Shown here: positions 8,389 through 63,562 of the stretch, in pieces
Position numbering within the stretch: position 1 is the first letter of the stretch
Layout of the letters: every line of letters begins with the position of its first letter
Assembly: GCF_007066085.1 (NCBI RefSeq)
Contig: NZ_CP041405.1
Span: forward strand, 4,419,001-4,483,000
Length of the DNA stretch: 64,000 nt
Direction: 5' to 3'
DNA from: Paenibacillus thiaminolyticus
GTDB taxonomy: Bacteria > Bacillota > Bacilli > Paenibacillales > Paenibacillaceae
The notes under the pieces: generated by a model
What the model was told of the DNA's origin: nothing
The model's input: only the letters and a program-made list of their open reading frames with translations
The model's database searches: none
Translations under genes and position numbers: made by a program

Positions 8389-8425
8389 CTGTCTCTAAAT
8401 TGAACATTTGTCGTCGAATGGGAAG

Positions 8426-8471: not shown

Positions 8472-8516
8472 ATTAATAATAAGTGATGAGAAATGAAGTA
8501 AAGCCGAGGAAAACGT

Positions 8517-9068
8517 ATGGAACGTTATGAGAAAGCCCTTGTGAAAAGTTTCAAACACGATGGCCATTTGCACCGGATGTGGCTGGAGAACTGGATCGTT
8601 CCCTCCTCGCTCGTGCATCCCGAGCATGCTGCTGAAGGAATGTTCGTGCTGATTAACAGCCAGACACCGATCAGGGAAGCGGACGGGAAGCAATGGAACA
8701 GCAAAATTCCTGCCGTTACGTTCCTCATTCCGAAGCAGTGGTTCAATGTGGTGGCGCTGATTGAGGATCACGGCATTCGCTACTACTGCAATATTGCCTC
8801 GCCGCCATATCGCACGGACAACATTTTCACCTATATCGATTACGATCTGGACGTCATTCAGATGCCCGGCGGCCAGGTGAATGTGGTGGACCAGGACGAG
8901 TATGAACAGAACCGGCATGTGTACCACTATCCTGATCTGGTGGAGCGCAAGATTAGCGCCGGCCTGGACGCGGTGCTGGAACGGATTCGGCATCGCCGGC
9001 CTCCGTTCTGGGACGATGAGGTGCGCCGGTACTACGAAGACTGGAAGCAGGCGATCCAGCCGGAATGA
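8517..9068 (+). CDS. DUF402 nucleoside tri-/diphosphate phosphatase (Ntdp/UPF0374 family)
   Basis: 183 residues, full family length. The DUF402 barrel is recognised by 'GIRYYCNIASPPYRTDNIFTYIDYDLDVI' (residues ~85-115), with the acidic metal-binding positions 'YIDYDLDV' and 'DQDEYEQN', and by the C-terminal 'WWxxxx'-like helix. Characterised relatives (Staphylococcus Sa1684, B. subtilis YgaC) hydrolyse terminal phosphates of nucleoside tri- and diphosphates with divalent metal. ATG preceded by GAGGAAAACGT. Cytoplasmic; physiological substrate here not determinable. Confidence 0.87.
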   Translation: MERYEKALVKSFKHDGHLHRMWLENWIVPSSLVHPEHAAEGMFVLINSQTPIREADGKQWNSKIPAVTFLIPKQWFNVVALIEDHGIRYYCNIASPPYRTDNIFTYIDYDLDVIQMPGGQVNVVDQDEYEQNRHVYHYPDLVERKISAGLDAVLERIRHRRPPFWDDEVRRYYEDWKQAIQPE

Positions 9069-9257
9069 GGGAATTCCTATGCAGGCTGGAGGCCGGGGGA
9101 GCAAGGAATGCGGCAGGGATGAATGGAAATGCAGGGAAGTCAGACCGTAACAGGAGCGGCGCCTGCTCTGGGGAATCCGGTACCCGGAGCTAGGGGGCCG
9201 TTCTGCATTTAGAGCGGCGCGATCCGCGCAGCGGTATCAATGAAGGAGGTGAACGGG

Positions 9258-10991
9258 ATGGCGGAACAAAAGCAAACGAAACGATGGACTCCATGCGGAA
9301 CAGATCAAGCGCCCGAGGCCAATGCGATCCGGGAAGCGGAACGCTGGCAGCGGCTCAAGCAGGAGATTATGGATGCAGCGGCTTCCATGGGTATTGACCA
9401 GATCGGCTTCACGACGGCAGACCCGTTCACCGAATTGAAGGCGCGCCTGCAGCATTCTATCGATCAAGGCTATGCATCCGGCTTCGAGGAGCCGGATCTG
9501 GACAAGCGGACGCAGCCGGCGCTGCTGCTGGACGGGGCGCGCTCCATTATCGCGATTGCGGTTGCTTATCCATCCAAGATGGAGGCCGGTCCGAAGTCGG
9601 AGGCGGGGGCTTACAGAGGAATGTTCGCCCGGACCGCATGGGGATTGGATTACCACCATGTGCTGAGGGATCGGCTGCAGCGGCTGGAGCAGTTCCTGCG
9701 CGAGAGGGTGCCGGAGGTGCGGGTGAAGAGCATGGTCGACACCGGCGAGATGTGCGACCGGGCGGTCGCCGAGCGTTCCGGCATCGGCTTCAGCGGCAAA
9801 AACTGCTCGATTATTTCCCCGAAGTGGGGATCGTGGATTTACTTGGGGGAAATGATTACGAATCTGCCGCTGCCGCCCGATCACCCGTTGACCGAGGATT
9901 GCGGGGAGTGCACACGCTGCCTCGATGCCTGCCCGACAGCAGCCTTCGCCGGTCCGGGGCAGCTGAATGCGCAGCGCTGCATCTCGTTCCAGACGCAGTC
10001 GAAGGAGATGCTGCCGCATGAGATGATGGTCAAGATAGGCAACCGGCTGTATGGCTGCGATACCTGTCAGATCGTATGCCCGAAGAACCGCGGGCTGAAT
10101 TGGACCCATCATGCCGAGATGCAGCCGGATCCGGAGCAGGCGAAGCCGCTGCTCGTGCCGCTGCTGTCGCTGTCGAACCGGGAATTCAAGTCCCGGTTCG
10201 GCAGCAGCGCGGCGGCGTGGCGCGGGAAGAAGCCGATCCAGCGCAACGCGATTGCGGCGCTCGGCAATTTCCGCGACCGCCAGGCCGTCCCGGCCCTGGA
10301 AGGGCTGCTGCGCACGGATGAGCGGCCGGATATCCGCGCCGCGGCGGCATGGGCCCTCGGCCAGATCTCCGGTCCGGACGCCAAGCGAATATTGAAGGCG
10401 GCGCTAAGCCGCGAGGAGGAGCCGAAGGTGAAGGAAGCTGTGATGCAAGCGCAGGAGCGCGCCGAAGCTCAGCATGAGCCGCTGTATGTGCAAGAGATGG
10501 AGAGCCCGCTTGGGCCGCTGACGTTGGCCGCGACCGCGACTGGATTGTTCGCGATCGAGTTCGGAGACGCGTTGTCGGTGGCCGAGGGGCTGCAGCGGCG
10601 GGCAGCCCGCAGCTACGGCCGCGTCGTGCTGCAGCGCCATCCGGAGCGGCTGCAGGCGGCCAAGCGCCAGTTGGAGGAGTATTTCGCGGGAACGCGGCGC
10701 GAATTCGATCTGACGCTGGATATCCAGGGGACACCGTTCCAGCGTCAGGTATGGCAAGCCTTGACCGGCATCCCTTATGGGGAGACCCGGTCCTATAAGC
10801 AGATCGCGGAAGCGATCGGCAATCCGGGGGCGGTACGGGCCGTCGGCGGAGCGAATAATCGCAATCCGCTCTCCATTATCGTGCCTTGCCACCGCGTGAT
10901 CGGTGCCGACGGACAGCTGGTCGGATATGGCGGCGGCATGGACAAGAAAGTCACGCTGCTTCGTCTTGAGGGCGTGTCTTGCGGGCAATGA
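9258..10991 (+). CDS. queG: Fusion: epoxyqueuosine reductase (QueG) plus methylated-DNA methyltransferase (Ogt)
   Basis: 577 residues in one uninterrupted frame; ATG 9258 follows AAGGAGGTGAACGGG, so an upstream ATG at 9240 is rejected. Residues ~1-405 are QueG: cobalamin-binding DUF1730 region, two [4Fe-4S] motifs (CGECTRCLDACPT near 215 and GCDTCQIVCPK near 265) and a C-terminal HEAT-type segment. QueG reduces epoxyqueuosine to queuosine at tRNA position 34. Residues ~410-577 form a full Ogt/MGMT domain: PFQRQVWQALTGIPYGETRSY and the suicide-Cys motif PCHRV near 545, which removes alkyl groups from O6-guanine. The two activities are usually separate proteins. No terminator is evident before the next promoter. 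Confidence 0.92.
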   Translation: MAEQKQTKRWTPCGTDQAPEANAIREAERWQRLKQEIMDAAASMGIDQIGFTTADPFTELKARLQHSIDQGYASGFEEPDLDKRTQPALLLDGARSIIAIAVAYPSKMEAGPKSEAGAYRGMFARTAWGLDYHHVLRDRLQRLEQFLRERVPEVRVKSMVDTGEMCDRAVAERSGIGFSGKNCSIISPKWGSWIYLGEMITNLPLPPDHPLTEDCGECTRCLDACPTAAFAGPGQLNAQRCISFQTQSKEMLPHEMMVKIGNRLYGCDTCQIVCPKNRGLNWTHHAEMQPDPEQAKPLLVPLLSLSNREFKSRFGSSAAAWRGKKPIQRNAIAALGNFRDRQAVPALEGLLRTDERPDIRAAAAWALGQISGPDAKRILKAALSREEEPKVKEAVMQAQERAEAQHEPLYVQEMESPLGPLTLAATATGLFAIEFGDALSVAEGLQRRAARSYGRVVLQRHPERLQAAKRQLEEYFAGTRREFDLTLDIQGTPFQRQVWQALTGIPYGETRSYKQIAEAIGNPGAVRAVGGANNRNPLSIIVPCHRVIGADGQLVGYGGGMDKKVTLLRLEGVSCGQ

Positions 10992-19656: not shown

Positions 19657-21198
19657 TTAGTACGGCTTCCATGCCAGGGTCCGCGCCGCCTGGAACCGTT
19701 CGTCGACCGCCGGCCAGTTGACGACATGCCACCAATCCTCGATATATTTGGCCCGCTCGTTCTTGTGCTTCAAATAGTAGGCATGCTCCCATACGTCGAT
19801 CGGAAGGAGCGGGATGACGTCCCACTGCGACAGATTCTGATGCTTCTCCGCCTGCAAAATCTCCAAGCGGCGGCTGCGCGGGCTCCAGACGAGAATCGTC
19901 CACCCGCCGCCCTGGACCTTCTCCGCGGCCTTGGAGAAATGCATTTTGAACGCCTTGAAGCTTCCGAAGTCACGCGTAATCTGATCGAGCAGTTCTCCGG
20001 TCGGTTGGCCGCCGCCCACCGGATTCATCGTATTCCAGAAAATCGTGTGCAAATAGTGGCCTGCGCCGTTAAACGCAAGCTCATTCGACCAGTGCTTCAC
20101 CAGATCGAAGCGGCCGGTGCGCCGTGCTTCCGCCAATGCGCGTTCGGCCCGGTTCAAGCCGTCGACATAGCTCTGGTGGTGCTTGTCATGATGTACCCGC
20201 ATCGTCGTCTCGTCGATATACGGCTCCAACGCATCATACGAATATGGCAATGGCGGCAGCGTATGGCCGCCGATCGGGACGGAGGCCATGTCCCCGCGCA
20301 GATAGTACTCCGGCATCAGCGGCTGATGTTGAGGATGGCCGGGCGGCCATCCTCCCGTCGGGGCATACGTCACCTCCCGGTACACCGAGTAGCCGAAGGG
20401 TACATTGTCAGGGGCGGTCCGGGCTTCGTCCTGCTTCTGTACCGGCTTAGCTTCCTGTTCCTCTGCTGGCTGGACCGCCTGGGCTGCCTGGTCCTGGTCC
20501 TGGGCCGTCAGAGGCGTCTGGGGTGTCTGAGCCGAACCGATGTAAGCCAGAATGCCGGAAGCAGGCGATTGCGGTAGGGTTGCCGCCGGTTCGCGGGAAG
20601 TATCCTCGGGTTCACTGTTGCAGGCTGTCAAGGGATTTTCCTCTTCCGGCGGGGAGCCGGAGCTGCTGCCGCCGTCGAGCGGCGGGACTTCGTGGATGAA
20701 CGCCTTCGGCTGTACGGCGCTGCCGGGCGGAGCGGCGTGCGCCCCCGGTGCGTCCGGCGAAGCGAAGGAAGACAGCGGCTTGTCTTTCAGAGCGTGCACG
20801 ACGTTCAGGAAATAGGCGGATTCACTGGCGATATGATCGAATACAATCGGGGCGAGCGGCACGCTATGCACGGCACGGCTATACTTCTTCATCGTCTCCA
20901 GATGCTTCACGAACTGCTCGGATTGATAGACGGATGCCTTGAGCAGCAGCTCGATCTTGTGCATCGTATCGGGAAGCGTGCTTCCCCCTTGCGACAGAAT
21001 GAACTGGAGCCAGGCTGAGGCAGCTTCCTCGGTTTTGGTGAAGACCGGCTCCCATTCCCGGAGCACTTGGACATATTCCGGCTCTAGCTGCGGTACGATG
21101 GCGAGAATGACCTCGATATGCTCGCGTTCTTGTTTTTTCCAAAATACGACCTCTTCCAGCACGCGGACAGGCATAAGTGACCCATATATGTACTCCAA
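19657..21198 (-). CDS. Fe/Mn superoxide dismutase with long helical and disordered N-terminal extension
   Basis: 513 residues, over twice a normal SOD. TTG start at 21198 is preceded by GAGGAGGAACGCTCG. Residues ~1-135 are a helical domain resembling DUF2935-type metal-binding bundles (EEVVFWKKQEREH start, HKIELLLKASVYQSEQFVKHL). Residues ~140-290 are Pro/Gln/Ala-rich and probably disordered. Residues ~300-513 are a complete SOD: TTMRVHHDKHHQSY, GAGHYLHTIFW, and [15 protein letters not shown] with the metal ligands. The SodF proteins of Bacillus also carry N-terminal extensions, so this may be an enlarged SodF. No signal peptide. Which metal is used cannot be told. Monocistronic with its own terminator. 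Confidence 0.87.
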   Translation of the reverse strand: MEYIYGSLMPVRVLEEVVFWKKQEREHIEVILAIVPQLEPEYVQVLREWEPVFTKTEEAASAWLQFILSQGGSTLPDTMHKIELLLKASVYQSEQFVKHLETMKKYSRAVHSVPLAPIVFDHIASESAYFLNVVHALKDKPLSSFASPDAPGAHAAPPGSAVQPKAFIHEVPPLDGGSSSGSPPEEENPLTACNSEPEDTSREPAATLPQSPASGILAYIGSAQTPQTPLTAQDQDQAAQAVQPAEEQEAKPVQKQDEARTAPDNVPFGYSVYREVTYAPTGGWPPGHPQHQPLMPEYYLRGDMASVPIGGHTLPPLPYSYDALEPYIDETTMRVHHDKHHQSYVDGLNRAERALAEARRTGRFDLVKHWSNELAFNGAGHYLHTIFWNTMNPVGGGQPTGELLDQITRDFGSFKAFKMHFSKAAEKVQGGGWTILVWSPRSRRLEILQAEKHQNLSQWDVIPLLPIDVWEHAYYLKHKNERAKYIEDWWHVVNWPAVDERFQAARTLAWKPY

Positions 21199-21308
21199 CG
21201 AGCGTTCCTCCTCTACATGTCAATGAAACGCGCATCCATGACCTCTTGTTACTAGCCTATTCCGCCGACAGGTTGGCTTATGCTTCTCCCGCTGCGCCGG
21301 AGAACTGC

Positions 21309-48823: not shown

Positions 48824-49954
48824 ATGGAACAAGAACGCAAATTGCGCGTCGGACTCATCTACGGCGGCAAATCAGGGGAACATGAAGTATCGATGGCTAC
48901 AGCCTTTGCGGTGATGGGAGCGATGGATTACGGCAAGTATGAGATCCTTCCTTTTTATATTACGAAAAAGGGAGAGTGGCGGGTCGGCACATGGCGGGAC
49001 CGGCCGTTCGCGAACCAAGAGGAACTGACGCTGGAATCGCTTAGAGGGGGAACCGTAACGGCGATGGAGATGCTGTTCGCGGGCATAGACAGCGCAGAAG
49101 GGGCGTCGGAGGACGGCGTGAGCCGGCGCCAGAGGCGCCAGATCGATGTAATATTCCCGCTTCTGCACGGCACGAACGGCGAAGACGGCACTATCCAGGG
49201 ACTGTTCGAGATGGCCGGCATCCCGTATGTCGGAGCGGGGGTGCTCGCCTCTTCCGTCGGAATGGACAAAGCCGTCATGAAGCAAGTCTTTGCCCAAGCG
49301 GGATTGCCTCAGTGCAAATACGAGTATTTTCTTCACTGGGAGTGGGATCAGAAGCAAGCGGAGATTATGGACCGGGTGCAGACTGAGCTGGGCTATCCAT
49401 GCTTCGTGAAGCCGGCCAATCTTGGGTCCTCGGTCGGTATTTCCAAAGCCCGCGATGCAGCGGAATTGAAGCAGGCGATTGAGTTCGCGCTGCAATACGA
49501 TCGGAAGATTATTGTAGAGGAATTCGTTGACGCACGGGAAGTTGAAGTGAGTGTTCTTGGCAATGACGAGCCGCAAGCGTCCATACCGGGGGAGATTATC
49601 TCGTCTAACGAATTTTATGATTATAAGGCAAAATATATCGACGGCAAATCAGAAATCGCTATCCCTGCGCCCCTGGACGAGGAACTGCTGGAGCGCATCC
49701 GCGAGATGGCGCTGCAGGCATACCGTGCCATCGACGGCTCCGGACTGTCGCGCGTGGACTTCTTCGTCCGCCGTTCCGACATGGCCGTCCTAATTAATGA
49801 AGTCAATACGATGCCAGGCTTCACTCCGATCAGCATGTACCCGATCTTATGGCAGGAGATGGGCATCACGTATCCGGCTCTGCTCGATCGTCTCATTCAG
49901 CTTGCTCTGGAGCGCTTCGAGATGAAGCAGAAGCTGCAATACGAGAACGTATAG
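48824..49954 (+). CDS. ddl: D-alanine--D-alanine ligase
   Basis: 376 residues, normal length. ATP-grasp enzyme: GGKSGEHEVSMATA near residue 15, HGTNGEDGTIQGLFEMAGIPYVGAGVLASSVGMDK near 105-140, 'CFVKPANLGSSVGISKA', and the metal/phosphate site INEVNTMPGFTPISMYP near 325. It joins two D-alanines with ATP for peptidoglycan precursors. CCGGAGGGGAAC precedes the ATG. A strong terminator follows at 50025. Confidence 0.96.
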   Translation: MEQERKLRVGLIYGGKSGEHEVSMATAFAVMGAMDYGKYEILPFYITKKGEWRVGTWRDRPFANQEELTLESLRGGTVTAMEMLFAGIDSAEGASEDGVSRRQRRQIDVIFPLLHGTNGEDGTIQGLFEMAGIPYVGAGVLASSVGMDKAVMKQVFAQAGLPQCKYEYFLHWEWDQKQAEIMDRVQTELGYPCFVKPANLGSSVGISKARDAAELKQAIEFALQYDRKIIVEEFVDAREVEVSVLGNDEPQASIPGEIISSNEFYDYKAKYIDGKSEIAIPAPLDEELLERIREMALQAYRAIDGSGLSRVDFFVRRSDMAVLINEVNTMPGFTPISMYPILWQEMGITYPALLDRLIQLALERFEMKQKLQYENV

Positions 49955-50364: not shown

Positions 50365-50690
50365 CCGCCCGTTCGGGCGGTCTGTGTCCTATCCCGTGCG
50401 CCTGCCGGTCCGTATCCCATCCCGTGCTGAGCGAATGGGACAATGCCCGAAAGGGCCCGCCGCCCCGTGTCCCATCCCGCGCTGAGCGAATGGGATACTG
50501 TGCCCAAAGGGCCCACCGCCCTGTGTCCTATCCCGCGCTGAGCGAATGGGACAATGCCCGAAAGGGCCTGCCGGCCTGTGCCCTATCCCGCGCTAAGCGA
50601 ATGGGATACTGTGCCCAAAGGGCCCGCCGCCCCGTGTCCCATCCCGCGCTGAGCGAATGGGATTACGCGGCAATGGGATCGACGTGAGGC
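50365..50690. repeat. Nested tandem array of hairpin-forming repeats (55/56-nt units, 111-nt period)
   Basis: It opens with a CCGCCCG-TT-CGGGCGG hairpin (50365-50380) and a truncated unit at 50391. The core ATCCCGYGCTGAGCGAATGGGA then starts at 50419, 50474, 50530, 50585 and 50641, spaced 55, 56, 55 and 56 nt. Linkers alternate between type A (ACAATGCCCGAAAGGGCC) and type B (ATACTGTGCCCAAAGGGCC), so the true period is 111 nt. Each core folds as TCCCAT...ATGGGA with an inner CGC/GCG stem. Type-A linkers form GCCC-GAAA-GGGC, a GNRA-tetraloop hairpin, and type B CCC-AAA-GGG. An ORF crosses it only because 111 is a multiple of 3; it has no ribosome binding site. Confidence 0.9.
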
Positions 50691-51281: not shown

Positions 51282-51469
51282 TCGAATAACCTCCGCTCTC
51301 TTCTCTACCGGGCGGGCGGGCCATCATTCGGCTGGCCCGCTCCCGTTATATATTGGTATGCGGGTTGCCGGTGCGGCGGACGAGCAGCGGTAATTTCCGG
51401 TGCTGATGCCTGAAGAATGCGCATAAGGTGAAATGTACCTTATTTCAATCCGATCGGAGGTTCAGGCCC

Positions 51470-51799
51470 TTGTATCAGTCATATTCAGCCCATGATTCCT
51501 CGTCCCCGCATCAACAAGCTATCTATCAGGCGGAGCCAAGTACGGTGCAAACCTTGCATTCCATACGGGCACGGGTCCAGTATGTCGGCCATATGTATAA
51601 GAAGCGGTATGTGCGGATTCAGACGATAGACGGTCATGTGTACGATGGCGTTATTGTGAATGTTGACCAGGGCTTTCTCTATCTGCACACCCGGATGCCG
51701 ATGGATCGACGGGCATTCCCCGGTTCAGCGGCTTATAGTGATGTCATTTTGCCGCTTGTTCTGTATCAATTACTGGTTATTTCGTTATTGTATACGTGA
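51470..51799 (+). CDS. Hypothetical small protein with a YuzF-like core
   Basis: 109 residues from a TTG start 8 nt after CGGAGGT; a GTG at 51428 is possible but lacks a site. After a polar Ser/Gln-rich N-terminus (~35 residues), the core HMYKKRYVRIQTIDGHVYDGVIVNVDQGFLYLHT resembles the small beta-barrel 'V.I.T.DG..YEG.IV.VD...+YL' pattern of short Bacillales proteins (YuzF/DUF2642-like, by recall). The C-terminus is hydrophobic (VILPLVLYQLLVISLLY), a possible membrane segment. Function unknown. A strong terminator follows at 51831. Confidence 0.6.
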   Translation: MYQSYSAHDSSSPHQQAIYQAEPSTVQTLHSIRARVQYVGHMYKKRYVRIQTIDGHVYDGVIVNVDQGFLYLHTRMPMDRRAFPGSAAYSDVILPLVLYQLLVISLLYT

Positions 51800-51830
51800 G
51801 CGAATTATGTTCCAACTGAGAATTATTCAG

Positions 51831-51859
51831 TCCTTGCATACAAAGATGCAAGGATTTTT
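51831..51859 (+). terminator. Rho-independent terminator
   Basis: TCCTTGCAT/ATGCAAGGA 9-bp stem, 6-nt loop, TTTTTCTTTTT. Confidence 0.94.
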
Positions 51860-51866
51860 CTTTTTC

Positions 51867-52362
51867 GGAGAGAGGGAAGAGAAGTAGTCCTTTTTTATCC
51901 ATTTTAGATTATCCATTTTCAGGATTATTTTAATATGAAAATAGTAGAAATTAACTAGAAATTGTTAAAAACATTTTAATGCAATGAATGTTAATATAAA
52001 TATGACTAAAGAACGAGAAAACTAGGTATTATTGGTAAAATGGTTACAATACCGAAACTTTTAAAGGAGGAACGCGTCTAACCATGTCAAATAAAGAAAA
52101 CCAGAACCAGACTCCTGCTTTTGTCCTCACTGATAGACGGGACTAACCGAATAGACTGTCTGATCACGGGCCACTGCCTTCCGCCCGCTTAGAACCATTT
52201 TTTTGACTCAAGGGTCCTGAACAAAAAGAGTCTAAATAACCATGTTAAACCATTGGTTTTCTTGGTTATAGTTAGTGTTAGGTGTTGCGCTTGATTTCCG
52301 CGGCACTGGATAAGTCACAGGAATTACGTTGTGCAGGAAAGGGTGAACAAATACTACGATCC
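51867..52362 (+). promoter_or_regulatory. Long, probably structured leader of the exopolysaccharide-like operon
   Basis: A very AT-rich start (51890-52040) gives way to a distinct leader. AAAGGAGG at 52063-52070 precedes a 20-codon ORF (52084-52146, MSNKENQNQTPAFVLTDRRD). Further on are a GC-rich block (52160-52200), GACTC/GAGTC arms near 52205-52232, and a hairpin ATAACCA...TGGTTAT (52236-52269) enclosing AAACCATTGGTTT. I could not match it to a known riboswitch. A regulatory RNA, for example an antitermination element as in some Bacillales exopolysaccharide operons, is possible. Exact promoter not assigned. Confidence 0.5.
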
Positions 52363-54573
52363 ATGAGCCGGAGAATGAAGTGGAATCTCATTACAGTTGT
52401 TGTCTTGCTTCTCGCTGCCGGCGGGCTGGCGGGGTATTATTTACCCGGTCTGCTGTATCCGAAGCAGATTGCCTATGCTGATGCGAGCGGCATCAAGCTG
52501 AAGTTCAAGACGGAAGGAGATCAATTCCTCGAATACAGGAATGAGCAGTTCGAACCGTTATTTGTGAAAGGAGTCAATCTTGGGGCGACGGTTCCGGGAC
52601 ACTTCCCGGGTGAATTTCCGGTCGACGAGGAGACGTATCTGCGCTGGTTCCGCCAAATTCATGATATGGGCGCCAATGTTATCCGCGTCTATACGGTGCA
52701 CCAGCCGGTCTTCTATAAGGCGCTAGTGAAGTTCAATCGGGAGGAAGCGGAACGCCCGCTTTATTTTATACAAGGAATCTGGTCCCCGGAGGAGCAGCTC
52801 ATCGAGAAGCAGGATGCGTATCTTCCGGAGATCCAACAGGAGTTCAAGCAGGAAATCGAGAAGGCGGTCAAGGCCGTCTATGGGGATCTGGATATCCCGG
52901 GCAAGCCGGGGACAGCAGGGGGAAAGTACAAGCAGAATGCGGGGCAGTATTTGATGGCCTGGCATCTCGGGACTGAGTGGGACCCGACGATGGTCGATAA
53001 TACGAACCGCCTGCATAAGGAGCTGAAGCCCTACCAAGGAAGCCGGTTCCAGGCGACGGAGAAGGCATCGCCATTCGAGAGCTGGCTGGCAGAAATGATT
53101 GATCATGCGGCAGAGCTGGAGAACCAATACGGCTGGCAGCATCCGATGACGTTCACCAACTGGGTGACGACCGACGTGCTGACGCATCCCGGCGAACCGC
53201 TGTTCCAGGAAGATATGGTCAGCGTCGACGCGCGCCATATTCAGCCGGTTGACTGGAAGGCCGGATATTTCGCGGCATACCACGTATATCCGTATTACCC
53301 GGACTTTTTCCATCTGGACAAGACGTTGCAGACGGTGAAGGATGAGAATGGACAATTCAATACGTATAAAGCGTATTTGCGCCTGTTGAAGGCGGAGTAT
53401 CCCGATATGCCGGTCATGATTACCGAATACGGGGTGCCGGCCTCGATCGGCATTTCCCATCTGGGCATGGGAGGCCGCAATCAGGGAGGACATGACGAGC
53501 GGGAGCAGGGCCGCATTAACGCCTCCTTGACGAAGGATATTTATGACGAGGAGTTCGCCGGCGCGATTCTGTTCATGTGGCAGGATGAATGGTTCAAGAA
53601 GACCTGGAACACGATGCGCTTCGAAATTCCGGAGGATCGCCGTTCCTACTGGCTGAACGTGCTGACGAATGAGCAATTGTTCGGCATTCTCGGCATGTAT
53701 TCGAGCAAGGAAGAACAGATCGTGCTTGATGGCGATTGGAGCGACTGGGAGGCCCTGGAGGACAAGGTTCAATTGAAGACCGAGCTTCCGGGCATCCGGG
53801 AGATGTGGGCGACCCATGATGAAGCCTACGTCTATCTTGCGCTCAAGCTGGACAAGCCATTCGATCCGAAGACGCAGAAGCTGCATATTGGCTCCAGCGT
53901 GCTGGAGGGGGGCAACCGCACCATGCCGGAACTCCCGGGCCTGAAGCTGGATGAAGGGCTGGAGACGCTCATCACGCTCGGCACGGATCAGGACAGCGAG
54001 ATCCGCATCGCGTCCAACTATGATTTCAACAATCGGCTGTATGGTCCGTCTGGCTATTGGATGGTGGATCCGGACAAGAAAGAGCTTCAAGATAATTCAG
54101 GGATCTTCAATCCGTGGAAATTGGCTGTCAGCCTGAAGATGGAGCCGCCGGATACGCGAACGGCGCATCCGTTCCAGGATGTGACGGTAGGCAAGCTGAT
54201 CCGCGGGACGAATAATCCGCACGATGAACAATATCAATCGCTTGCCGCGTGGCAGTATAAGGAAGATGTCATCGAGATGCGCATCCCTTGGATGCTGTTC
54301 GGCTTCGCCGACCCGAGTTCGAAGCAGGTTATCAGCTATGACCCGGTCAAGGACAAGCGGACGTTCACGACCGTGAAGACGGAAGGCATCCGGTTCCTGC
54401 CTTGGCTGTCGGAACGGGAACAAGCTTCATCCGGGAAGAAGGCCGTATCATACGCTTTCCGAAATATCCCAGTATACCAATGGGATGACTGGGAGCAGGT
54501 TGGCTATACCGAACGGTTGAAGCAAAGCTATACCGACATGAAAAATATATTCGAGCAGTTGGGTGCAGAGTAG
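52363..54573 (+). CDS. Membrane-anchored glycoside hydrolase-like protein (clan GH-A fold)
   Basis: About 736 residues from ATG 52363; the frame is open back to a GTG at 52282 and no start has a good Shine-Dalgarno, so the start is uncertain. An N-terminal membrane helix (residues ~5-27) is followed by a (beta/alpha)8-type domain: FVKGVNLGATVPGHFPGEF near 68, GANVIRVYTVHQP near 105, acid/base candidate Glu in WHLGTEWDP near 205, nucleophile candidate Glu in MITEYGVPA near 355. A C-terminal beta-rich domain (~445-735) is sugar-binding-like. First gene of an operon with a polysaccharide synthase, so it may trim or modify the polymer outside the membrane. Exact family not assigned. Confidence 0.8.
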   Translation: MSRRMKWNLITVVVLLLAAGGLAGYYLPGLLYPKQIAYADASGIKLKFKTEGDQFLEYRNEQFEPLFVKGVNLGATVPGHFPGEFPVDEETYLRWFRQIHDMGANVIRVYTVHQPVFYKALVKFNREEAERPLYFIQGIWSPEEQLIEKQDAYLPEIQQEFKQEIEKAVKAVYGDLDIPGKPGTAGGKYKQNAGQYLMAWHLGTEWDPTMVDNTNRLHKELKPYQGSRFQATEKASPFESWLAEMIDHAAELENQYGWQHPMTFTNWVTTDVLTHPGEPLFQEDMVSVDARHIQPVDWKAGYFAAYHVYPYYPDFFHLDKTLQTVKDENGQFNTYKAYLRLLKAEYPDMPVMITEYGVPASIGISHLGMGGRNQGGHDEREQGRINASLTKDIYDEEFAGAILFMWQDEWFKKTWNTMRFEIPEDRRSYWLNVLTNEQLFGILGMYSSKEEQIVLDGDWSDWEALEDKVQLKTELPGIREMWATHDEAYVYLALKLDKPFDPKTQKLHIGSSVLEGGNRTMPELPGLKLDEGLETLITLGTDQDSEIRIASNYDFNNRLYGPSGYWMVDPDKKELQDNSGIFNPWKLAVSLKMEPPDTRTAHPFQDVTVGKLIRGTNNPHDEQYQSLAAWQYKEDVIEMRIPWMLFGFADPSSKQVISYDPVKDKRTFTTVKTEGIRFLPWLSEREQASSGKKAVSYAFRNIPVYQWDDWEQVGYTERLKQSYTDMKNIFEQLGAE

Positions 54574-54616
54574 AGGCCCAAGCTGCACTTGATACCGACA
54601 AAGGAGGCACACGTAC

Positions 54617-55807
54617 ATGTTTTCCAGTTTGGGAGTCGCTCTCGGCTTCATTTACGTTTGTCTTGGCTTGATTGGCATCGGTGTACTCATTTTGTTATTG
54701 ATGAAAGCACGCAATAACCGGCTAGCCAAGCATCAGGAGATTTATTTGGAGAAGCATCAGCCCTATTTCGTGTATTTGCAGAGACATATGCTGGACCCGG
54801 ATCCGTTCCAGCCTCCCAAGGGGCCTCTTCGTACGCTGGAGATGAGGGTGATTCAGGAGAAGCTGATGGAATGGATGGACAAATTCAGCGGGGAGCAGCA
54901 GCAGAAGCTGACGGCGCTCTGTGAAGACATGGGTCTGGTGGACCGCGATATTAAGGAGTTAGGCAGCCTGTTCTACTCCAAGCAGATGAAGGCGGCGTTC
55001 CGGCTGGGCGGAATGCGCTCCGAGCGGGCGGTTCCCCATCTGATGAAGGCGATGATGCAGGAGAAGGACGGTCCGCTCCTGCAGGTGCTGGCGCGTTCCG
55101 TGGCCAAATGCGCCAACGAGGCGGAGCAGCTCCATACGATGCTTCAGCAGTTGACGCGCCACCGCCAAAGCCATTTGCTGGCTGCGGAGGTGTTGGAAGA
55201 GACGCGGGTGAACGCGACCCCGATGCTCGTCCGCTGTCTCAAGGACGAGTCGGACAATATGGTCAAGGCGGCTTTGCTCGCCTTAAGCGGACAGACGGAC
55301 GTCGCGCTGACGCCCGCCCTGCTTCCGCTCGTTGACAGTCATGACAAAGAGATCCGGGCCCTCGCGGTCAAAATGCTCGTTCGCGCCGGACATGCGCTGA
55401 CCGAGAACAACATCCGCGAATGGATCAAGGATCCGGAATGGGAGATCCGAGCCGCTGTGGCAGAAGCGCTCGGACATTCCAAGAACACGGATCGAATCCC
55501 GGTGCTCAAGCAAGCATTGACCGATTCCAATTGGTGGGTTCGCTACTACAGTGCGAACAGCCTGTCCAATATGGGGGATGAAGGCTTCCATGCGCTGTGC
55601 GAAGCAGCACTGGAGACCGACGATCACTTCAAGTCGGACATGGCGAAAGATCGCATACACAAGGAGCTTCTGCGCGAACACTTCTTTGCCGGCCGGCGAG
55701 AGCAGGGTGCCGGATATCAGCCGAAGCGGATCATCTATGAGCAGTATTTCGGCGAGGCCGCGATCGCTCCGCTACTTGGCAGGGTAGGAGGCGATTATTC
55801 TGCTTAG
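54617..55807 (+). CDS. HEAT-repeat protein with N-terminal membrane anchor
   Basis: 396 residues; AAAGGAGGCACACGTAC precedes the ATG. One membrane helix (residues ~7-29) is followed by a cytoplasmic helical region and six or so HEAT-like repeats from about residue 110 (RSERAVPHLMKAMM, 'DPEWEIRAAVAEALGHSKNTDRIPVLKQALTDSNWWVRYYSANSLSNMG'). Such repeats are protein-interaction scaffolds. Its 3' end overlaps the proposed non-ATG start of the glycosyltransferase gene, which implies coupled synthesis. It may tether the synthase complex; no enzymatic motif is seen. Confidence 0.82.
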   Translation: MFSSLGVALGFIYVCLGLIGIGVLILLLMKARNNRLAKHQEIYLEKHQPYFVYLQRHMLDPDPFQPPKGPLRTLEMRVIQEKLMEWMDKFSGEQQQKLTALCEDMGLVDRDIKELGSLFYSKQMKAAFRLGGMRSERAVPHLMKAMMQEKDGPLLQVLARSVAKCANEAEQLHTMLQQLTRHRQSHLLAAEVLEETRVNATPMLVRCLKDESDNMVKAALLALSGQTDVALTPALLPLVDSHDKEIRALAVKMLVRAGHALTENNIREWIKDPEWEIRAAVAEALGHSKNTDRIPVLKQALTDSNWWVRYYSANSLSNMGDEGFHALCEAALETDDHFKSDMAKDRIHKELLREHFFAGRREQGAGYQPKRIIYEQYFGEAAIAPLLGRVGGDYSA

Positions 55808-57227
55808 AGATCTGCTGCTTGTCTATGGCATCGTCGTCATGTACTACGTCATTATTGTCAACTCTATTTATTTCGGCATAATGCTGTGTTCTTTTAAGAG
55901 CATTTCCTCAATTGTTCGCCGCAAGCGATATGCGCTGCGCAGCAATCTCGCAGGCTCGGAGCATGTACCGCCGGTATCGCTGCTCGTGCCTGCCTATAAT
56001 GAAGAATTGACGATTATCGAGAATGTGAAGTCGCTTATGACGCTCAACTATTCGACCTACGAGATTATCGTCGTCAATGACGGCTCCAGCGATAATACGC
56101 TGCAGGTGATGATCGAGGAGTTCGGGATGTACCGTATGGACAATCTGGCTGTGCGCTACGCGGTCAATTGCACGAAGTTCCGGGGCGTCTATTACAATCC
56201 GGAATATCCGAATCTGTATCTTATCGACAAGGCGAATGGCGGGAAGGCCGACTCGCTCAACGCGGGGATCAACTTCTCCCACTATCCGCTCATCTCGTCG
56301 ATCGACGCCGACTCGCTGCTGGAGAAAGACTCGCTTATCCAAATGGCGAACCTGTACATGTCCAATCCGGAGGAGTATGTCGCCATCGGAGGCAATGTGC
56401 GGATCGCCAATGGCTGCAAGATCGAGAACGGCACCGTCACCGACGTGAGACTGCCGAAGAAGTGGTGGCCGATGTTCCAGACGCTGGAGTATTTGAAGGC
56501 GTTCCTCGGCGGCCGCATCGGCTGGGGCGCGATCAACGGGTTGATCATCGTCTCGGGCGCGTTCGGCCTGTTCCGCAAGGATTATGTCATCAAGGTCGGC
56601 GGGTACCGCGAAGGGTATCCGGGCGAGGACATGAACATCATTATCAAGCTGCACCGTTATATGCTGGAAAATAAACTGCCGTACCGTGTCGCGTTCTGCC
56701 CGGAAGCGGTCTGCTGGACGCAGGCGCCGGATACGTATCATATTTTGTCCAATCAGCGGAAGCGCTGGGGACGCGGCAATCTGAAAAACATGATCGAGAA
56801 CTACGACATGGCATTCCGTCCGAAGTACAAAGTATTCGGCTTGCTCTCGATGCCGTATACGATCCTGTTCGAGGCGCTGAATCCGTATTTCAAAGTCACG
56901 GGCTTGCTTGCCCTAATCGGGTATGCGTTCTTGGACATGACGCAATGGCCTATCGTGCTTATCTTCATGCTGATTAATTTCTTGTCCGGCATGCTGCTTG
57001 CCATCGGTTCGCTGCTGCTGGAGGAGATCGCCTTCAAGCGATATCCGCGGATCAGCGACCTGCTGCGCATGCTCGCATTCAGCGTGCTCATGTTCTTCGG
57101 CTATCGTCAGTTGGGAAGTCTATGGCGGATTCAAGGCCATATTCAATATTTCCAGAACAACAACTCGTGGGGGGCCATGACCCGCCAGAGCTGGCAAGAG
57201 GACAGCAAGCCGGCCAAATCGGCTTGA
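55800..57227 (+). CDS. Processive family-2 glycosyltransferase (polysaccharide synthase, BcsA/NodC-like)
   Basis: 475 residues if started at the CTG at 55800 (or ATT just before), which lies 8 nt after TAGGAGG and completes the first membrane helix. The first ATG (55839) has no binding site and would cut that helix. Catalytic motifs: VVNDGSSDN near residue 87, SIDADSLL near 163, GEDMN near 277, QRKRWGRGN near 320. This is the D, DxD, (E/T)D, QxxRW set of processive beta-glycosyltransferases. Several C-terminal helices form the export channel. It should polymerise a nucleotide sugar across the membrane; the neighbouring dehydrogenase suggests a uronic-acid-type sugar in the product. Confidence 0.88.
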   Translation: MLRDLLLVYGIVVMYYVIIVNSIYFGIMLCSFKSISSIVRRKRYALRSNLAGSEHVPPVSLLVPAYNEELTIIENVKSLMTLNYSTYEIIVVNDGSSDNTLQVMIEEFGMYRMDNLAVRYAVNCTKFRGVYYNPEYPNLYLIDKANGGKADSLNAGINFSHYPLISSIDADSLLEKDSLIQMANLYMSNPEEYVAIGGNVRIANGCKIENGTVTDVRLPKKWWPMFQTLEYLKAFLGGRIGWGAINGLIIVSGAFGLFRKDYVIKVGGYREGYPGEDMNIIIKLHRYMLENKLPYRVAFCPEAVCWTQAPDTYHILSNQRKRWGRGNLKNMIENYDMAFRPKYKVFGLLSMPYTILFEALNPYFKVTGLLALIGYAFLDMTQWPIVLIFMLINFLSGMLLAIGSLLLEEIAFKRYPRISDLLRMLAFSVLMFFGYRQLGSLWRIQGHIQYFQNNNSWGAMTRQSWQEDSKPAKSA

Positions 57228-57260
57228 CGATAACAGTTGGGAAAGGTGGTATTTCCGAAA

Positions 57261-58058
57261 ATGCTGAACACGGTAATGAAACCGGAAGCTGCACCGTCTG
57301 TCAAAGAAAAGGTCCAACGCTTGTGCGCCACTGACAGCGACCGCCTGGGGGTGATTCTCCTTCACGCTCAACCGTTCGGTTCGAACTGGGAAGCGCAGGC
57401 ACGGGAGTGGCTCTCGGCTGACCGGAATCTTCGCTTCGAGCTGCTGCGCGATGCGGCCCATGACATTCTGGCCGTGCTGCTGCCGGACTCCGCGCTCGAC
57501 ATGACCCACTATCATGCGCTGCAGCTGAAGATGCTGCTTGAGCAGAGCCATGTCGGCAAGCCGATCGTATGCGCGATCGCCGCCCCGGACAACCCGGCGG
57601 AAGCGAAATCGCTCCTCTTCGATCGCTGGTCGGAGCTGAAGATGATGGACGGCACCGCCGGCATTTGCGTCCTGCACGATGAGCTGGAGGCGCCTGATGC
57701 GAAGAAAATTCTCATCGTCGACCATGACGACAGCGTGCGCGAGTTCCTGCAGATTCAGCTCAAGCTCCAGGGCTATGAGGTGCATGCGGCAACCGATGCG
57801 ATAACCGCCCTGGACATGATCCGGAAGGAAGGCTACGACCTGATCGTCACCGAGCTCAATCTGTACGGGTTGAATGGCTTGCCGTTCATTTCCCAGATTC
57901 AGAAGATGGAACTGGCCAAAGAGCCCAAAATCGTCATTCTGTCGGAGCAGCGCGTAGGAAGTACGATCGAGCACTGCTTCCAGCAGGGCGTGAGCGACTA
58001 TATTACGAAGCCGTTCTCGCCGGCAGATTTGGACGCTAGAATCAGAAGCTGTTTTTAA
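57261..58058 (+). CDS. Pseudo-receiver protein with possible degenerate GGDEF-like N-terminus
   Basis: 265 residues from ATG 57261 (AAAGGTGGT upstream; an in-frame TTG at 57237 is less likely). Residues ~145-265 form a CheY-like receiver: KKILIVDHDDSVREFL, then DLIVTELNLYGLNG. Here the phospho-acceptor Asp is replaced by Glu (about residue 198), while the Ser (ILSEQR) and Lys (TKPF) positions are kept. The N-terminal ~125 residues have the spacing of a GGDEF domain, with LLRDAAHDILAVLLPDS where GGDEF would be, but no signature residues; this resemblance is my inference. It sits between the synthase and dehydrogenase genes, so it probably controls synthase activity or assembly by binding rather than by phosphorylation. 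Confidence 0.75.
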   Translation: MLNTVMKPEAAPSVKEKVQRLCATDSDRLGVILLHAQPFGSNWEAQAREWLSADRNLRFELLRDAAHDILAVLLPDSALDMTHYHALQLKMLLEQSHVGKPIVCAIAAPDNPAEAKSLLFDRWSELKMMDGTAGICVLHDELEAPDAKKILIVDHDDSVREFLQIQLKLQGYEVHAATDAITALDMIRKEGYDLIVTELNLYGLNGLPFISQIQKMELAKEPKIVILSEQRVGSTIEHCFQQGVSDYITKPFSPADLDARIRSCF

Positions 58059-58146
58059 ATAGATATATAAGTGCGTTCCCGCGGGCCGGCAAGCGGACTG
58101 TGGGAACAAACACGATAATCCAATTCTTCTATGGAAGGTGAAGCCT

Positions 58147-59511
58147 GTGAACATGTATGCCGCCAATTTGAAACACAACATCGAAAATCAATCGTCTGTC
58201 GTCGGAGTCATTGGTCTCGGATATGTCGGTCTGCCGCTCGCGGTCGAGATGTGCAAGCAAGGGTTCCGCGTCATCGGAATTGACCTGAACCCTTCGAAGA
58301 TCGCCAGCATCCGCAAAGGACACTCCTACATCAAGGACGTCAGCGATGAGACGCTGCAACAATGCATGGACACAGGTCGGTTCATGGCTACGAACGAGTA
58401 TGAGCATATCCGCGAAATGGATGCGGTCAGCATTTGCGTCCCGACGCCGCTGAGCGAGAATCAGGATCCGGATACGTCGTACATTACGCAAGTCGTGGAT
58501 CAATTGAAGCAGTATATGAAGAAGGGGAGCCTCATTACGCTCGAGAGCACGACTTATCCGGGCACGACGGAGGAGCTCATTCAACGGGAGATCGAGAAGC
58601 TGGGCTACCGTGCGGGAGAGGATTTCTTCCTCTGCTTCTCGCCGGAGCGGGTCGATCCTTCCAACACGAAATACAATACGTTCAACACGCCGAAGGTCAT
58701 CGGCGGGGCCACCCCGACCTGCCTGGAGCTGGGGGCCGCACTCTATAGCCGCGTCGTCATGGAGGTCGTGCCGGTCTCGTCCACGAAGGTGGCCGAAATG
58801 TCCAAGCTGCTGGAGAACACGTTCCGCAGCATCAATATTGCCTTCATCAACGAGATGGCGATGATGTGCGACCGGATGAGCATCGACATCTGGGAAGTCA
58901 TCGAAGCGGCTTCGACGAAGCCGTTCGGATTCATGCCGTTCTACCCGGGACCGGGGATCGGCGGCCACTGCATCCCGCTTGATCCAATGTATCTGTCTTG
59001 GAAGGCGAAGGGCTTCCGCTTCTACAGCAAATTCATCGATATTGCCCAATCGATCAATGCGAACATGCCATACTATGTCGTGGAGAAGACCGGACGGATT
59101 CTGAATCAGAGCTCCAAATCGCTCAATCATTCCAAGATCCTCATCCTCGGGATGGCGTACAAATCCGACATCGACGATCTGCGGGAATCGCCAGGACTGG
59201 AAGTGTACGAGCTGTTCAAGGCGAGCGGCGCCAATGTCGATTATTACGATCCGCATGCCACTCACTTCATCAGCAAGTCGGGTAAAATGGTGCGTACTAT
59301 CGACTACAATCTGCAGGACTTCGGAACGTATGACTGCATGGTGCTGATTACGAGCCACCAGTCATTCGATTATGAAGAACTTGCCGATCTGGGCATTCCG
59401 ATTCTGGATACCCGCAACGCCTTCAAGGGCATCGAGCGGCCGAATATTTTCAAGCTGGGCAATTCGGTGCAGCAAATTCAGAGTGAGTGGGATCAGGTTG
59501 TTCTGGTCTAG
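58147..59511 (+). CDS. Nucleotide-sugar 6-dehydrogenase (UDP-HexNAc type, WbpA-like)
   Basis: 454 residues from the GTG at 58147 (GGAAGGTGAAGCCT upstream). NAD-binding VIGLGYVGLPLAVEM near residue 20, ESTTYPGTTEELI near 130 (a pattern typical of UDP-GlcNAc/UDP-ManNAc dehydrogenases rather than UDP-glucose ones), and the catalytic Cys in GPGIGGHCIPLDPMYL near 275. 'AYKSDIDDLRESPGLEV' belongs to the C-terminal UDP-binding domain. It oxidises the sugar C6 alcohol to a carboxylate in two NAD+ steps, supplying a uronic acid donor for the synthase of this operon. Confidence 0.9.
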   Translation: MNMYAANLKHNIENQSSVVGVIGLGYVGLPLAVEMCKQGFRVIGIDLNPSKIASIRKGHSYIKDVSDETLQQCMDTGRFMATNEYEHIREMDAVSICVPTPLSENQDPDTSYITQVVDQLKQYMKKGSLITLESTTYPGTTEELIQREIEKLGYRAGEDFFLCFSPERVDPSNTKYNTFNTPKVIGGATPTCLELGAALYSRVVMEVVPVSSTKVAEMSKLLENTFRSINIAFINEMAMMCDRMSIDIWEVIEAASTKPFGFMPFYPGPGIGGHCIPLDPMYLSWKAKGFRFYSKFIDIAQSINANMPYYVVEKTGRILNQSSKSLNHSKILILGMAYKSDIDDLRESPGLEVYELFKASGANVDYYDPHATHFISKSGKMVRTIDYNLQDFGTYDCMVLITSHQSFDYEELADLGIPILDTRNAFKGIERPNIFKLGNSVQQIQSEWDQVVLV

Positions 59512-60445
59512 ACCGCTTCTGTGGCTGTTCCGCAGGAACGAGGAAGGCGGTTGGCGGCCCTCGTTCCTTACTGGGCAGCACGGGCTGAAGGTGGCCGTGC
59601 TGCTCTGCTGTTTGGCGGTCGCTGCTCTGCTGCTCAGCCAGGCCGGAACGGAGAATACGCGGGCGACCTGGCTGTGGGAGACGAAATGGATGGCGGAAGC
59701 GCCGGCCGATATCGTCTCCTTCGCGCAAGCGCAGCGGATCAATCTGATCTATCTGCAGATTGATGAGGAGCAGGAAGCGGAGTCTTACCGCCGCTTCATA
59801 CGCATGGCCCGCGAGGCCGGCATCCAGGTGCACGCCCTGGAAGGGAAGCCCGAGTGGGCCAAGCCCGACCGCCGCGAGGAGGGCGTCGGCTTCATCCGCT
59901 GGGTCCGCGATTATAATGCGGCCGTTCCGGAGGAGGAGCGGTTCAGCGGCGTCCATTTCGATGTCGAGCCTTATCTCCTGCCGGGCTGGAAGGAAGAGCA
60001 GGCTCGCATCGTGAAGGAATGGACGGACAGCATGGACCGCTGGATTCACGAGGCCCGGGAGGCGGGGCTGTTCATCGCGGCCGATGTGCCCTTCTGGCTG
60101 GACAAGATTCCGGCGCCAGAGGAGGACGCCTCGATGAGCGTCTGGGTGCAGGAGCGGTTCGACGCCATCACGATTATGGCGTACCGCAACCATGTCAATG
60201 CGATCTATGACGTGGCCGCGGCCGATCTGAGCATCGGGGAGCGGCTGAACCGCCCGGTTCTCGTCGGGGTCGAGCTGGGCCAGACCGACGAAGGCGAGAG
60301 CGTATCTTTCCATGGCCAGTCGGAGCATTATTTTGATTACCATTTACGGGCGCTGGAGCAGCAGGGAGGACGCCATCCGTCCTTCGCCGGCGTCGCCATC
60401 CATCATCTGCGGGCGTGGTACGACAAGGTATACGAAGCGGAATGA
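59483..60445 (+). CDS. Membrane-anchored TIM-barrel-like protein of the exopolysaccharide operon
   Basis: About 320 residues; the frame overlaps the end of the dehydrogenase gene. The start is unclear: the GTG at 59483 is used, but no good Shine-Dalgarno is seen. A membrane helix (GLKVAVLLCCLAVAALLLSQ, residues ~36-55) precedes a domain with beta/alpha repeats. These include INLIYLQIDEEQEAESYRRFI, 'GIQVHALEGKPEWA', FSGVHFDVEPYLLPGW near 160, 'FIAADVPFWLD', and 'ITIMAYRNH' near 240. The acidic HFDVEP strand end and the MAYRN strand resemble GH18/GH-like barrels. Glycan hydrolase or binding activity is inferred, not shown. Last gene of the operon. Confidence 0.7.
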   Translation: MSGIRLFWSRPLLWLFRRNEEGGWRPSFLTGQHGLKVAVLLCCLAVAALLLSQAGTENTRATWLWETKWMAEAPADIVSFAQAQRINLIYLQIDEEQEAESYRRFIRMAREAGIQVHALEGKPEWAKPDRREEGVGFIRWVRDYNAAVPEEERFSGVHFDVEPYLLPGWKEEQARIVKEWTDSMDRWIHEAREAGLFIAADVPFWLDKIPAPEEDASMSVWVQERFDAITIMAYRNHVNAIYDVAAADLSIGERLNRPVLVGVELGQTDEGESVSFHGQSEHYFDYHLRALEQQGGRHPSFAGVAIHHLRAWYDKVYEAE

Positions 60446-62774: not shown

Positions 62775-63491
62775 CTAATCAATATATTCGTTCAGTTTTT
62801 GCGCATTCAGGATCGTGATTTCCCGGGTGCCTTTGATTTCAATAATACCCAGCCGTTCAAACTTGCTGAATTTGCGGCTGATTGTTTCCCGTGTCACGCC
62901 CACATAATTGGCCAATTCTTCGCGCGACAGGGGAAGTTTTATCTTTATCCTCTCCTGCGCTCCTTGAACCGGTTTGCCGTATTTATTGCCGAGTTCCAGG
63001 ATCATATAGGCAATCCGTATTTCAGGGTCCTTGGTAGCCAGGCTTTGGGCCAGATTTTCCGTGTGCGCCAATCGTTTGGTCACCGTTTTGAGCAGCTTCA
63101 ATGAAATGTCCGGGTTGTTGCGGACAAGATGCTCCATATCATCCTTGGTGAACATGCAAATGTCGGTCTTTTTCAGCGCATAGGCACTAAAATTACTCAA
63201 TTCATCGCTGTTGAATATATTCAACTCGCCAAAAAAATCACCGTTGGACAGGATATGCAAGATTTGCTCTTTGCCCTGAGGCGTCACTTTCAACAGCTTG
63301 ACATGGCCTTGCTTAATAATGAATAAGGTGTCTGAAGGTTGTTCCTCCAGAACGAGCGCTTCGCCTTTCTCATACTTTCTGTGTTTGATCATGGCGCTGA
63401 CTTTAGCCAGTTCCTCATTGGAAAGAGAGGCGAAAATAGGAACCTTGCGGGTGCAAGGCTCCTCGGCGTATTGGCAGGAATCTTCTGTCAT
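62775..63491 (-). CDS. Crp/Fnr-family transcriptional regulator
   Basis: 238 residues from ATG 63491 (GTGGAG upstream); a longer frame to 63548 is less likely. Cyclic-nucleotide-binding-like sensor barrel at ~20-140 (YEKGEALVLEEQPSDTLFIIKQGHVKLLKVTPQGKEQILHILSNGDFFGELNIF). Crp-type helix-turn-helix at ~185-220 (LSREELANYVGVTRETISRKFSKFERLGII). Two N-terminal cysteines (C6, C13, in CQYAEEPC) precede the VPIF motif common in Fnr-like sensors of redox or NO, but a full Fnr Cys set is absent. Together with the rubredoxin and reductase genes directly upstream it suggests control of an oxygen- or NO-related electron chain. Confidence 0.9.
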   Translation of the reverse strand: MTEDSCQYAEEPCTRKVPIFASLSNEELAKVSAMIKHRKYEKGEALVLEEQPSDTLFIIKQGHVKLLKVTPQGKEQILHILSNGDFFGELNIFNSDELSNFSAYALKKTDICMFTKDDMEHLVRNNPDISLKLLKTVTKRLAHTENLAQSLATKDPEIRIAYMILELGNKYGKPVQGAQERIKIKLPLSREELANYVGVTRETISRKFSKFERLGIIEIKGTREITILNAQKLNEYID

Positions 63492-63562
63492 CGTCTCCAC
63501 TCCATTCCCTCTATCTGCTCCATGTGCAGTGCGCAAGCATGACCGCACATCATTTCATGCTG

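Follow-up and report, generated by a model that had tools for sequence, protein, structure and literature searches.

A six-gene operon of Paenibacillus thiaminolyticus with a HEAT-repeat protein and two glycosidase-like barrels as a candidate synthase-type exopolysaccharide system

Among described polysaccharide systems, those closest to the locus analysed here are the hyaluronan has operon, which is composed of HasA, HasB and GlmU, the poly-N-acetylglucosamine (PNAG) systems PgaABCD and IcaADBC, and the Pel and cellulose systems, whose marks include a Pel-type protein, BcsB and the PilZ domain. The locus is a six-gene operon within a 64,000-nucleotide stretch (the window; contig NZ_CP041405.1, positions 4,419,001 to 4,483,000) of the 6.6-Mb genome of Paenibacillus thiaminolyticus, whose nearest named relatives are Paenibacillus sp. 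2.1 and P. dendritiformis (96% GH1 identity). On the plus strand, from 52363 to 60445, it encodes in order a membrane-anchored glycosidase-like barrel (GH1), a HEAT-repeat protein (HEAT), a processive glycosyltransferase (GT2), a receiver-domain regulator (REC), a nucleotide-sugar dehydrogenase (UDH) and a second anchored barrel (B2). We consider it somewhat more probable than not that these proteins form a synthase-type system making an extracellular polymer based on N-acetylglucosamine (GlcNAc), probably containing an N-acetyl-hexosamine (HexNAc) uronate, that is trimmed outside the cell by the two glycosidases. Among the matches listed, the open-licence literature on the gene set or on Paenibacillus exopolysaccharide (EPS) holds no description of the six-gene set; its novelty is a new set of partners within the known synthase-dependent logic.

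The operon resembles the has operon in its single GT2, its nucleotide-sugar dehydrogenase and, in some relatives, a gene for the supply of UDP-GlcNAc (UDP, uridine diphosphate), and differs from it in the HexNAc type of UDH, as judged by score and motif, in its extracellular glycosidases and in its HEAT protein. Relative to the PNAG systems, GT2 scores far below the PgaC cut-off, and the operon adds HEAT, REC, UDH and a GH157-like enzyme. With the Gram-positive Pel and cellulose systems it shares a synthase-type logic and the presence of a regulator and a glycosidase in the operon (for Pel, PMC7112168), and GGDEF domains are found in 9 of the 14 equivalent regulators scanned in clusters related to the window operon. 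A Pfam scan of ten open reading frames (ORFs) in the window, the six operon genes and four others between 47.7 and 63.5 kb, detected no Pel-type protein, no BcsB, PilZ domain or PgaB/IcaB-type polysaccharide deacetylase, and no Wzx/Wzy-like gene, in agreement with a preliminary description of this DNA that had noted the lack of BcsB-, PgaB- and Wzx/Wzy-like genes. The pep-1 and pep-2 clusters of P. polymyxa (PMC7911366) are likewise EPS operons of a Paenibacillus, with ugdH, named as a UDP-glucose dehydrogenase gene, and two predicted glycosyl hydrolases, PepM and PepN. According to the available text of that paper they comprise 12 and 17 genes, eight of them listed as glycosyltransferases, together with a YveK-like protein and a tyrosine kinase. 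They differ from the window operon by these many glycosyltransferases, and the term HEAT is absent from the paper's main text.

Each of the six ORFs was recovered, on a single strand and in the order given by the preliminary description, which had placed the start of the operon at 51867. GH1 most likely begins at the ATG at 52363, a position occupied by methionine in aligned relatives, and a stop lies shortly upstream of it, given that the frame is open over 741 residues in the four closest relatives; positions 51867–52362 hold the promoter and leader (Table 1). Calculated from the coordinates, the intergenic gaps are 43, 31, 33 (REC taken from ATG 57261), 79 and −14 bp in order along the operon. 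The translational coupling that had been proposed for part of the operon therefore narrows to UDH and B2, the sole overlapping pair when B2 is taken from TTG 59498, the other pairs being 31–79 bp apart. A B2 that starts at this TTG is as long as entry P0013 of P. dendritiformis. The earlier domain assignments hold, with Pfam matches for HEAT (106.7 bits), GT2, REC (Response_reg, PF00072, 82.4 bits) and UDH (three UDPG_MGDP_dh domains), and with structure models for the folds of both barrel proteins, neither of which has a significant Pfam match.

Table 1. Features of the operon and of the region upstream of it, in window coordinates.
Feature	Position	Strand	Description
GH1	52363..54573	+	Anchored in the membrane at its N-terminus; (beta/alpha)8 barrel, like clan GH-A (putative acid/base E205, putative nucleophile E355); beta-sandwich at the C-terminus
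HEAT	54617..55807	+	HEAT-repeat protein, single N-terminal membrane helix, predicted cytosolic; based on Pfam HEAT_2 (7.3e-31), topology and linkage
GT2	55839..57227	+	Processive glycosyltransferase; D81, DxD 156-158, GED 262-264, QxxRW 306-310
REC	57261..58058	+	N-terminal domain of ~150 aa, then a receiver whose phospho-Asp position holds Glu; TTG 57237 opens the ORF
UDH	58138..59511	+	UDP-HexNAc-type nucleotide-sugar 6-dehydrogenase (predicted)
B2	59498..60445	+	GH18-like barrel behind an N-terminal anchor; GVHFDVEPY holds the D-x-E; TTG as probable start, so that the gene overlaps the end of UDH
ECF-sigma-like promoter	52053..52081	+	-35 CGAAAC 52053-52058, 16-nt spacer, -10 CGTCTAA 52075-52081; aligned with 24 relatives
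Conserved leader motif	52225..52276	+	AACCATGTTA...TTGGTTA; iterated nhmmer, alignment of 22 sequences

A comparison of gene order, which the preliminary description had proposed, shows that the linkage is kept in relatives. We assembled 80 named loci, which are the best of at least 593 GH1 matches and are biased towards the window's type, fetched up to 10 kb on each side of GH1, and called genes with score thresholds. All six genes occur in the same order and on the same strand in 58 of the 80 loci (Paenibacillus, Brevibacillus, Cohnella and others), one of which (L109) has HEAT split into two ORFs, and the five genes GH1-HEAT-GT2-REC-UDH are in order on one strand in 66. The uronate step is accessory, as 13 further loci keep HEAT-GT2-REC-GH1 without UDH in the fetched stretch; one more locus is a 4.5-kb fragment. 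Across 197 genomes of the family, GH1 is found in 94 (weak matches included) and the cluster-type HEAT in 63 at E 1e-15, a cut-off that misses the more diverged HEAT proteins of related clusters. A GH1 match lies on the same contig in all 63 HEAT-positive genomes, with a median gap of 52 bp, a gap below 200 bp in 57 of them and a largest gap of 7.8 kb. Both the ordered loci and this co-location exceed what chance would give.

The system had been described as possibly one of Paenibacillus, where it is indeed present; it is not restricted to that genus, as Brevibacillus, Cohnella, Ammoniphilus, Aneurinibacillus and Pontibacillus also have the core GH1-HEAT-GT2-REC, which is seen less frequently elsewhere in the phylum, in other families. 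In a draw of 299 genomes from the phylum, GH1 is present in 17, a figure that includes the genome of the window and one member of its family. Outside the family, 17 neighbourhoods were fetched, with two genomes contributing a pair each; of these, six have a separate GT2 and HEAT linked to GH1, one has a GH1::HEAT fusion beside GT2 and one has GT2 and REC on the other strand. The core thus extends past the family, yet GH1 is not always inside such a cluster. B2::GH1 fusions in L032 and L033 and a GH1::HEAT fusion in L179 further tie the parts of the system together. In L179, from a distant family of the phylum, GH1 and HEAT (42 bits) form a single ORF of 1081 residues (6844–10089) that adjoins GT2.

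A second, UDH-less cluster type is seen in L035–L048, L071, L180 and L184, with regulators that contain GGDEF, REC or Hpt domains and sometimes with histidine kinases. Several of its loci encode a longer GH1 (~1060–1125 aa) with an unassigned N-terminal part, and in three a diverged second GH1-like protein of 1026–1062 aa stands in tandem with GH1 (L046 6873–9953, L047 6622–9723, L048 9594–12782); the L046 protein, the only copy scanned, has no Pfam domain. A Crp/Fnr-like regulator family occurs in the operon stretch of 15 loci (for example L058 15156–15704; Pfam on one member) and sits after B2 in L057–L059, and the window has a Crp-like gene on the minus strand at 62775–63548 (Pfam). In L077, from P. 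rubinfantis, group II intron domains lie downstream of the cluster (20905–21200).

Processive GT2 synthases are marked by a D, DxD, (T/G)ED and QxxRW, and GT2 carries all four. These core residues are invariant in 80 of 80 sequences from the named loci and the window, and in 43 of 43 in a second, partly overlapping set. GT2 is not of the BcsA/CelA type, as the cellulose synthase model TIGR03030 gives 36.6 bits against a cut-off of 699.1. A search of the PDB returned no sequence match to hyaluronan synthase at E 0.001, a result that is still compatible with a hyaluronan-synthase type.

By simple hydropathy, HEAT has an N-terminal helix in 77 of the 80 loci, and since the N side of this helix is more positive in none of them, the repeats are predicted to be cytosolic. 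The receiver domain of REC has Glu in place of a phosphorylatable Asp in the window, as do 68 of 78 REC sequences. By eye, a degenerate GGDEF domain at the N-terminus of REC appeared plausible; this was rejected when the N-terminal part alone reached a probability of 0.2%, compared with 0.8% for reversed controls. A probability of 99.7% obtained in another REC comparison is carried by the receiver part.

Structure prediction and family searches for the two barrel proteins, suggested in the preliminary description, give a GH157-like fold for GH1 and a GH18-like fold for B2. Clan GH-A enzymes are marked by a barrel with catalytic Glu residues after strand 4 and on strand 7, and the GH1 model is such a barrel, with E205 after the strand at 197–203 and E355 on the strand at 351–356. 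Both residues are invariant in 81 of 81 GH1 sequences; a distant member, L050, lacks E205. The nearest fold is GH157, a relation that is a match of folds and establishes no sequence membership, and one drawn from a 736-residue model that can hide single-domain structure matches. GH1 differs from LaGH157 (PDB 9g4n/9fz9/9g5g) by an added anchor and a beta-sandwich, the latter presumably CBM9/DOMON-like, and it has no sequence match in the PDB. The B2 model matches the GH18 and Cwp19 folds, and a B2 profile matches PDB 10yv (Cellulomonas fimi, titled 'Putative GH97') at 1.9e-30 over nearly the full length of 10yv. While B2 shares this fold and profile match, it differs from GH18-fold enzymes in that Glyco_hydro_18 is absent among the 11 Pfam families matched by any of 16 B2 members at E up to 1, and in that, of the GH18 signature, D-x-E alone is kept.

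Where databases name the best 120 of 3,115 GH1 matches, they do so mostly as 'hypothetical protein' and sometimes as 'Family 2 glycosyl transferase'; for B2, the names among the best 120 of 257 matches are 'hypothetical', 'amidase' and 'SGNH/GDSL hydrolase'. The structure model and the 10yv profile match lead us to reject these SGNH/GDSL hydrolase and amidase assignments for B2, and likewise GH53, to which one member has a weak Pfam match. An N-terminal helix is found by simple hydropathy in 72 of 80 GH1 proteins (66 of them N-in) and in 67 of 74 B2 proteins (57 of them N-in), and both are therefore predicted to be anchored in the membrane and to face outside.

UDH belongs to the nucleotide-sugar dehydrogenases, scoring 433.5 bits with the general model TIGR03026 (cut-off 189.8), and among more specific models it scores highest with those for N-acetylmannosamine (ManNAc) dehydrogenases (265 and 255 bits), followed by TviB (220 bits) and the UDP-glucose (UDP-Glc) types (157 and 145 bits). 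The motif ENTFR is present in 67 of 67 UDH sequences and also in 4r16 and 3g79, with ENTYR in Cap5O, and EN-x-x-R is lacking in CalS8 and in the genome's own UDP-Glc-like enzyme. It is possible that this motif reads the substrate, and the substrate of UDH would then be of the UDP-HexNAc type. By reading, the genome has two further enzymes of this kind, one with the pattern of a UDP-Glc dehydrogenase, at 1.62 Mb, and one of the Cap5O type. UDP-GlcNAc 6-dehydrogenases do exist in Bacillales, since one of B. cereus NVH 391-98 is employed, according to the available text of PMC5078965.

The sugar itself is suggested by the genes around the cluster. At least one of glmS, glmM and glmU lies in the fetched neighbourhood of 31 of the 80 named loci (identities checked on examples), with GlmS in 27, the GlmU uridylyltransferase in 15 and GlmM in 10. 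GlmS is linked in 18 of 66 loci with UDH and in 9 of 14 without it (one of the nine, L140, being a 4.5-kb fragment), which points to GlcNAc as the sugar shared by both. Each of the 14 genomes examined for this, all with a linked GlmS (G110, G178 and 12 of the 27 named), carries a further full-length copy elsewhere, with two or three full-length copies in each of the 12 named genomes and two in G110 and in G178; G000, where GlmS is not linked, has one. This linkage is the strongest evidence as to the product and points to a GlcNAc-derived sugar as the common element.

In the mechanism that we favour, UDP-GlcNAc would be the base donor inside the cell, and UDH would oxidise part of it to a UDP-N-acetyl-hexosaminuronate, most likely UDP-N-acetylglucosaminuronate (UDP-GlcNAcA). 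GT2 would polymerise one or both donors and extrude the chain through its own membrane channel. HEAT, held at the membrane and facing the cytosol, may serve as a scaffold that bridges GT2 and REC, and REC, with Glu replacing the phosphorylated Asp, may be a switch or a docking partner and not an ordinary two-component regulator. On the outer side of the cell, the two anchored enzymes, GH157-like GH1 and GH18-like B2, would cut, release or re-join the chain. The synthase-dependent, uronate-containing polymer of the preliminary description stands as a hypothesis, supported by the GlcNAc supply genes, the processive motifs, the split between outside and inside proteins, and the linkage, with the uronate step reduced to an accessory one.

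Several observations weigh against this mechanism. The best curated model for GT2, PgaC/IcaA TIGR03937, gives 133.3 bits against a cut-off of 422.3, and the cut-offs of all curated synthase models lie far above the scores of GT2; UDH, similarly, is below the ManNAc- and TviB-type equivalog cut-offs. Asp is found at the key site of REC in 10 of 78 sequences, no GGDEF was detected in the window REC, and profile comparison gives its N-terminal domain no detectable link to GGDEF that would speak for control of this operon by c-di-GMP. Other genes separate UDH and B2 in 13 of the 58 six-gene loci, 8 of the 66 loci with the first five genes lack B2 or have it on the opposite strand, and 9 of the 17 neighbourhoods outside the family have GH1 without the other core genes at the thresholds used. 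None of the three supply genes is in the fetched neighbourhood of 49 of the 80 named loci, and in the window genome, where the search covered GlmS, the only full-length copy is ~1.4 Mb from the operon. Of the linked GlmU proteins, 14 of 15 are short (253–356 aa, the other being 458 aa) and could not alone complete UDP-GlcNAc synthesis, because they end before the acetyltransferase part.

Other readings of the same genes differ in the second sugar, in where the product resides, or in what GT2 does. If UDH made UDP-glucuronate (UDP-GlcA) from UDP-Glc, GT2 could alternate GlcNAc and GlcA in the manner of a hyaluronan synthase, giving a glycosaminoglycan-like polymer. We consider this unlikely, as UDH falls on the HexNAc side both in its scores (265 bits with a ManNAc dehydrogenase model, compared with 157 and 145 for the UDP-Glc models) and in its ENTFR motif, and as the UDP-Glc-like enzyme at 1.62 Mb is a separate one; a fold match, for its part, does not show the specificity of UDH. 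The product could also be a cell-wall or secondary wall glycan, bound to the wall, with B2 and GH1 remodelling either this product or peptidoglycan and no free exopolysaccharide being made, a reading to which we give little credence. Finally, many membrane GT2 proteins transfer single sugars, and it is conceivable, if very improbable in our view, that GT2 is non-processive, that the cluster decorates a lipid or protein, and that the substrates of both barrels are glycans from the environment. Such a role would fit the curated model ranked second for GT2, an XrtG-associated transferase, and the conflicting database names of the cluster proteins, but QxxRW and GED are fully conserved, the best curated model is a PNAG polymerase, and the gene is tightly linked to those of the two anchored glycosidases as well as, in many relatives, to genes for precursor supply.

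Upstream of GH1, the window has a promoter that we take to be of the extracytoplasmic function (ECF) sigma type, going by the ECF consensus. Of 67 UDH-containing sequences, the window among them, 16 have the pattern GAAAC-N15-17-CGTC there, compared with 0.4 on average and 2 at most in 20 shuffles, and a looser pattern is present in 24 of 67 against 3.2 (maximum 7); one of the 16 matches, in L121, is at a different distance and is probably due to chance. The pattern is found in none of 14 UDH-minus loci, where GH1 is the last gene and the sequence before it is not the operon's upstream region. The sequences compared for both promoter and leader are related to one another and are not independent. 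The leader motif comes from an alignment of 22 of 25 sequences, three near-duplicates having been left out, and has no Rfam match above the gathering score. In the leaders of six loci no Rfam family reached the gathering score, except for group II intron parts in L077, and relaxed thresholds, applied to L085 and the window, gave weak and unrelated families only. Three further candidates were rejected: an RsaF match at 51824–51932 is sub-threshold (30.7 bits, gathering score 60) and looks like chance or a terminator; the frame of a leader peptide (MSNKENQ...) at 52084 is, by eye, kept in L005 and broken in L004 and L006; and an RNA hairpin in the leader, also examined by eye, shows exchanges that keep pairing in some loci and broken pairs in others, such as L083, L077 and L149.

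Directly upstream of the operon is a small ORF (51428–51799, 123 aa from GTG), whose middle part bears a resemblance, by eye, to Hfq/Sm proteins. Further upstream, a tandem array at 50410–50662 has 4.6 copies of a 56-bp unit with 84% matches (alternatively a 111-bp unit) and sits between a D-Ala-D-Ala ligase-like ORF (48824–49954, by eye) and a metallophosphoesterase-like gene.

A broader possibility, which we put forward tentatively and with confidence short of even, is that the loci belong to a phylum-wide and hitherto undescribed family of exopolysaccharide machines, each with a single GT2 and a HEAT scaffold in the cytosol. The product of the Paenibacillaceae-type members would then be a new polyanion, composed either of GlcNAc together with N-acetyl-hexosaminuronate or of the uronate alone, and the coupled pair of surface glycosidases would determine how long its chains become. 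If our reading is correct, a common group of soil and gut bacteria would share a polysaccharide machine whose two glycosidase-like proteins databases mostly enter as hypothetical or give doubtful names. As a Gram-positive synthase system it would be small and tractable, with a HEAT scaffold and a regulator without the phosphorylated Asp, its product may be a new amino-uronate polymer akin to glycosaminoglycans, and two uncharacterised glycosidase families would gain an obvious candidate substrate.

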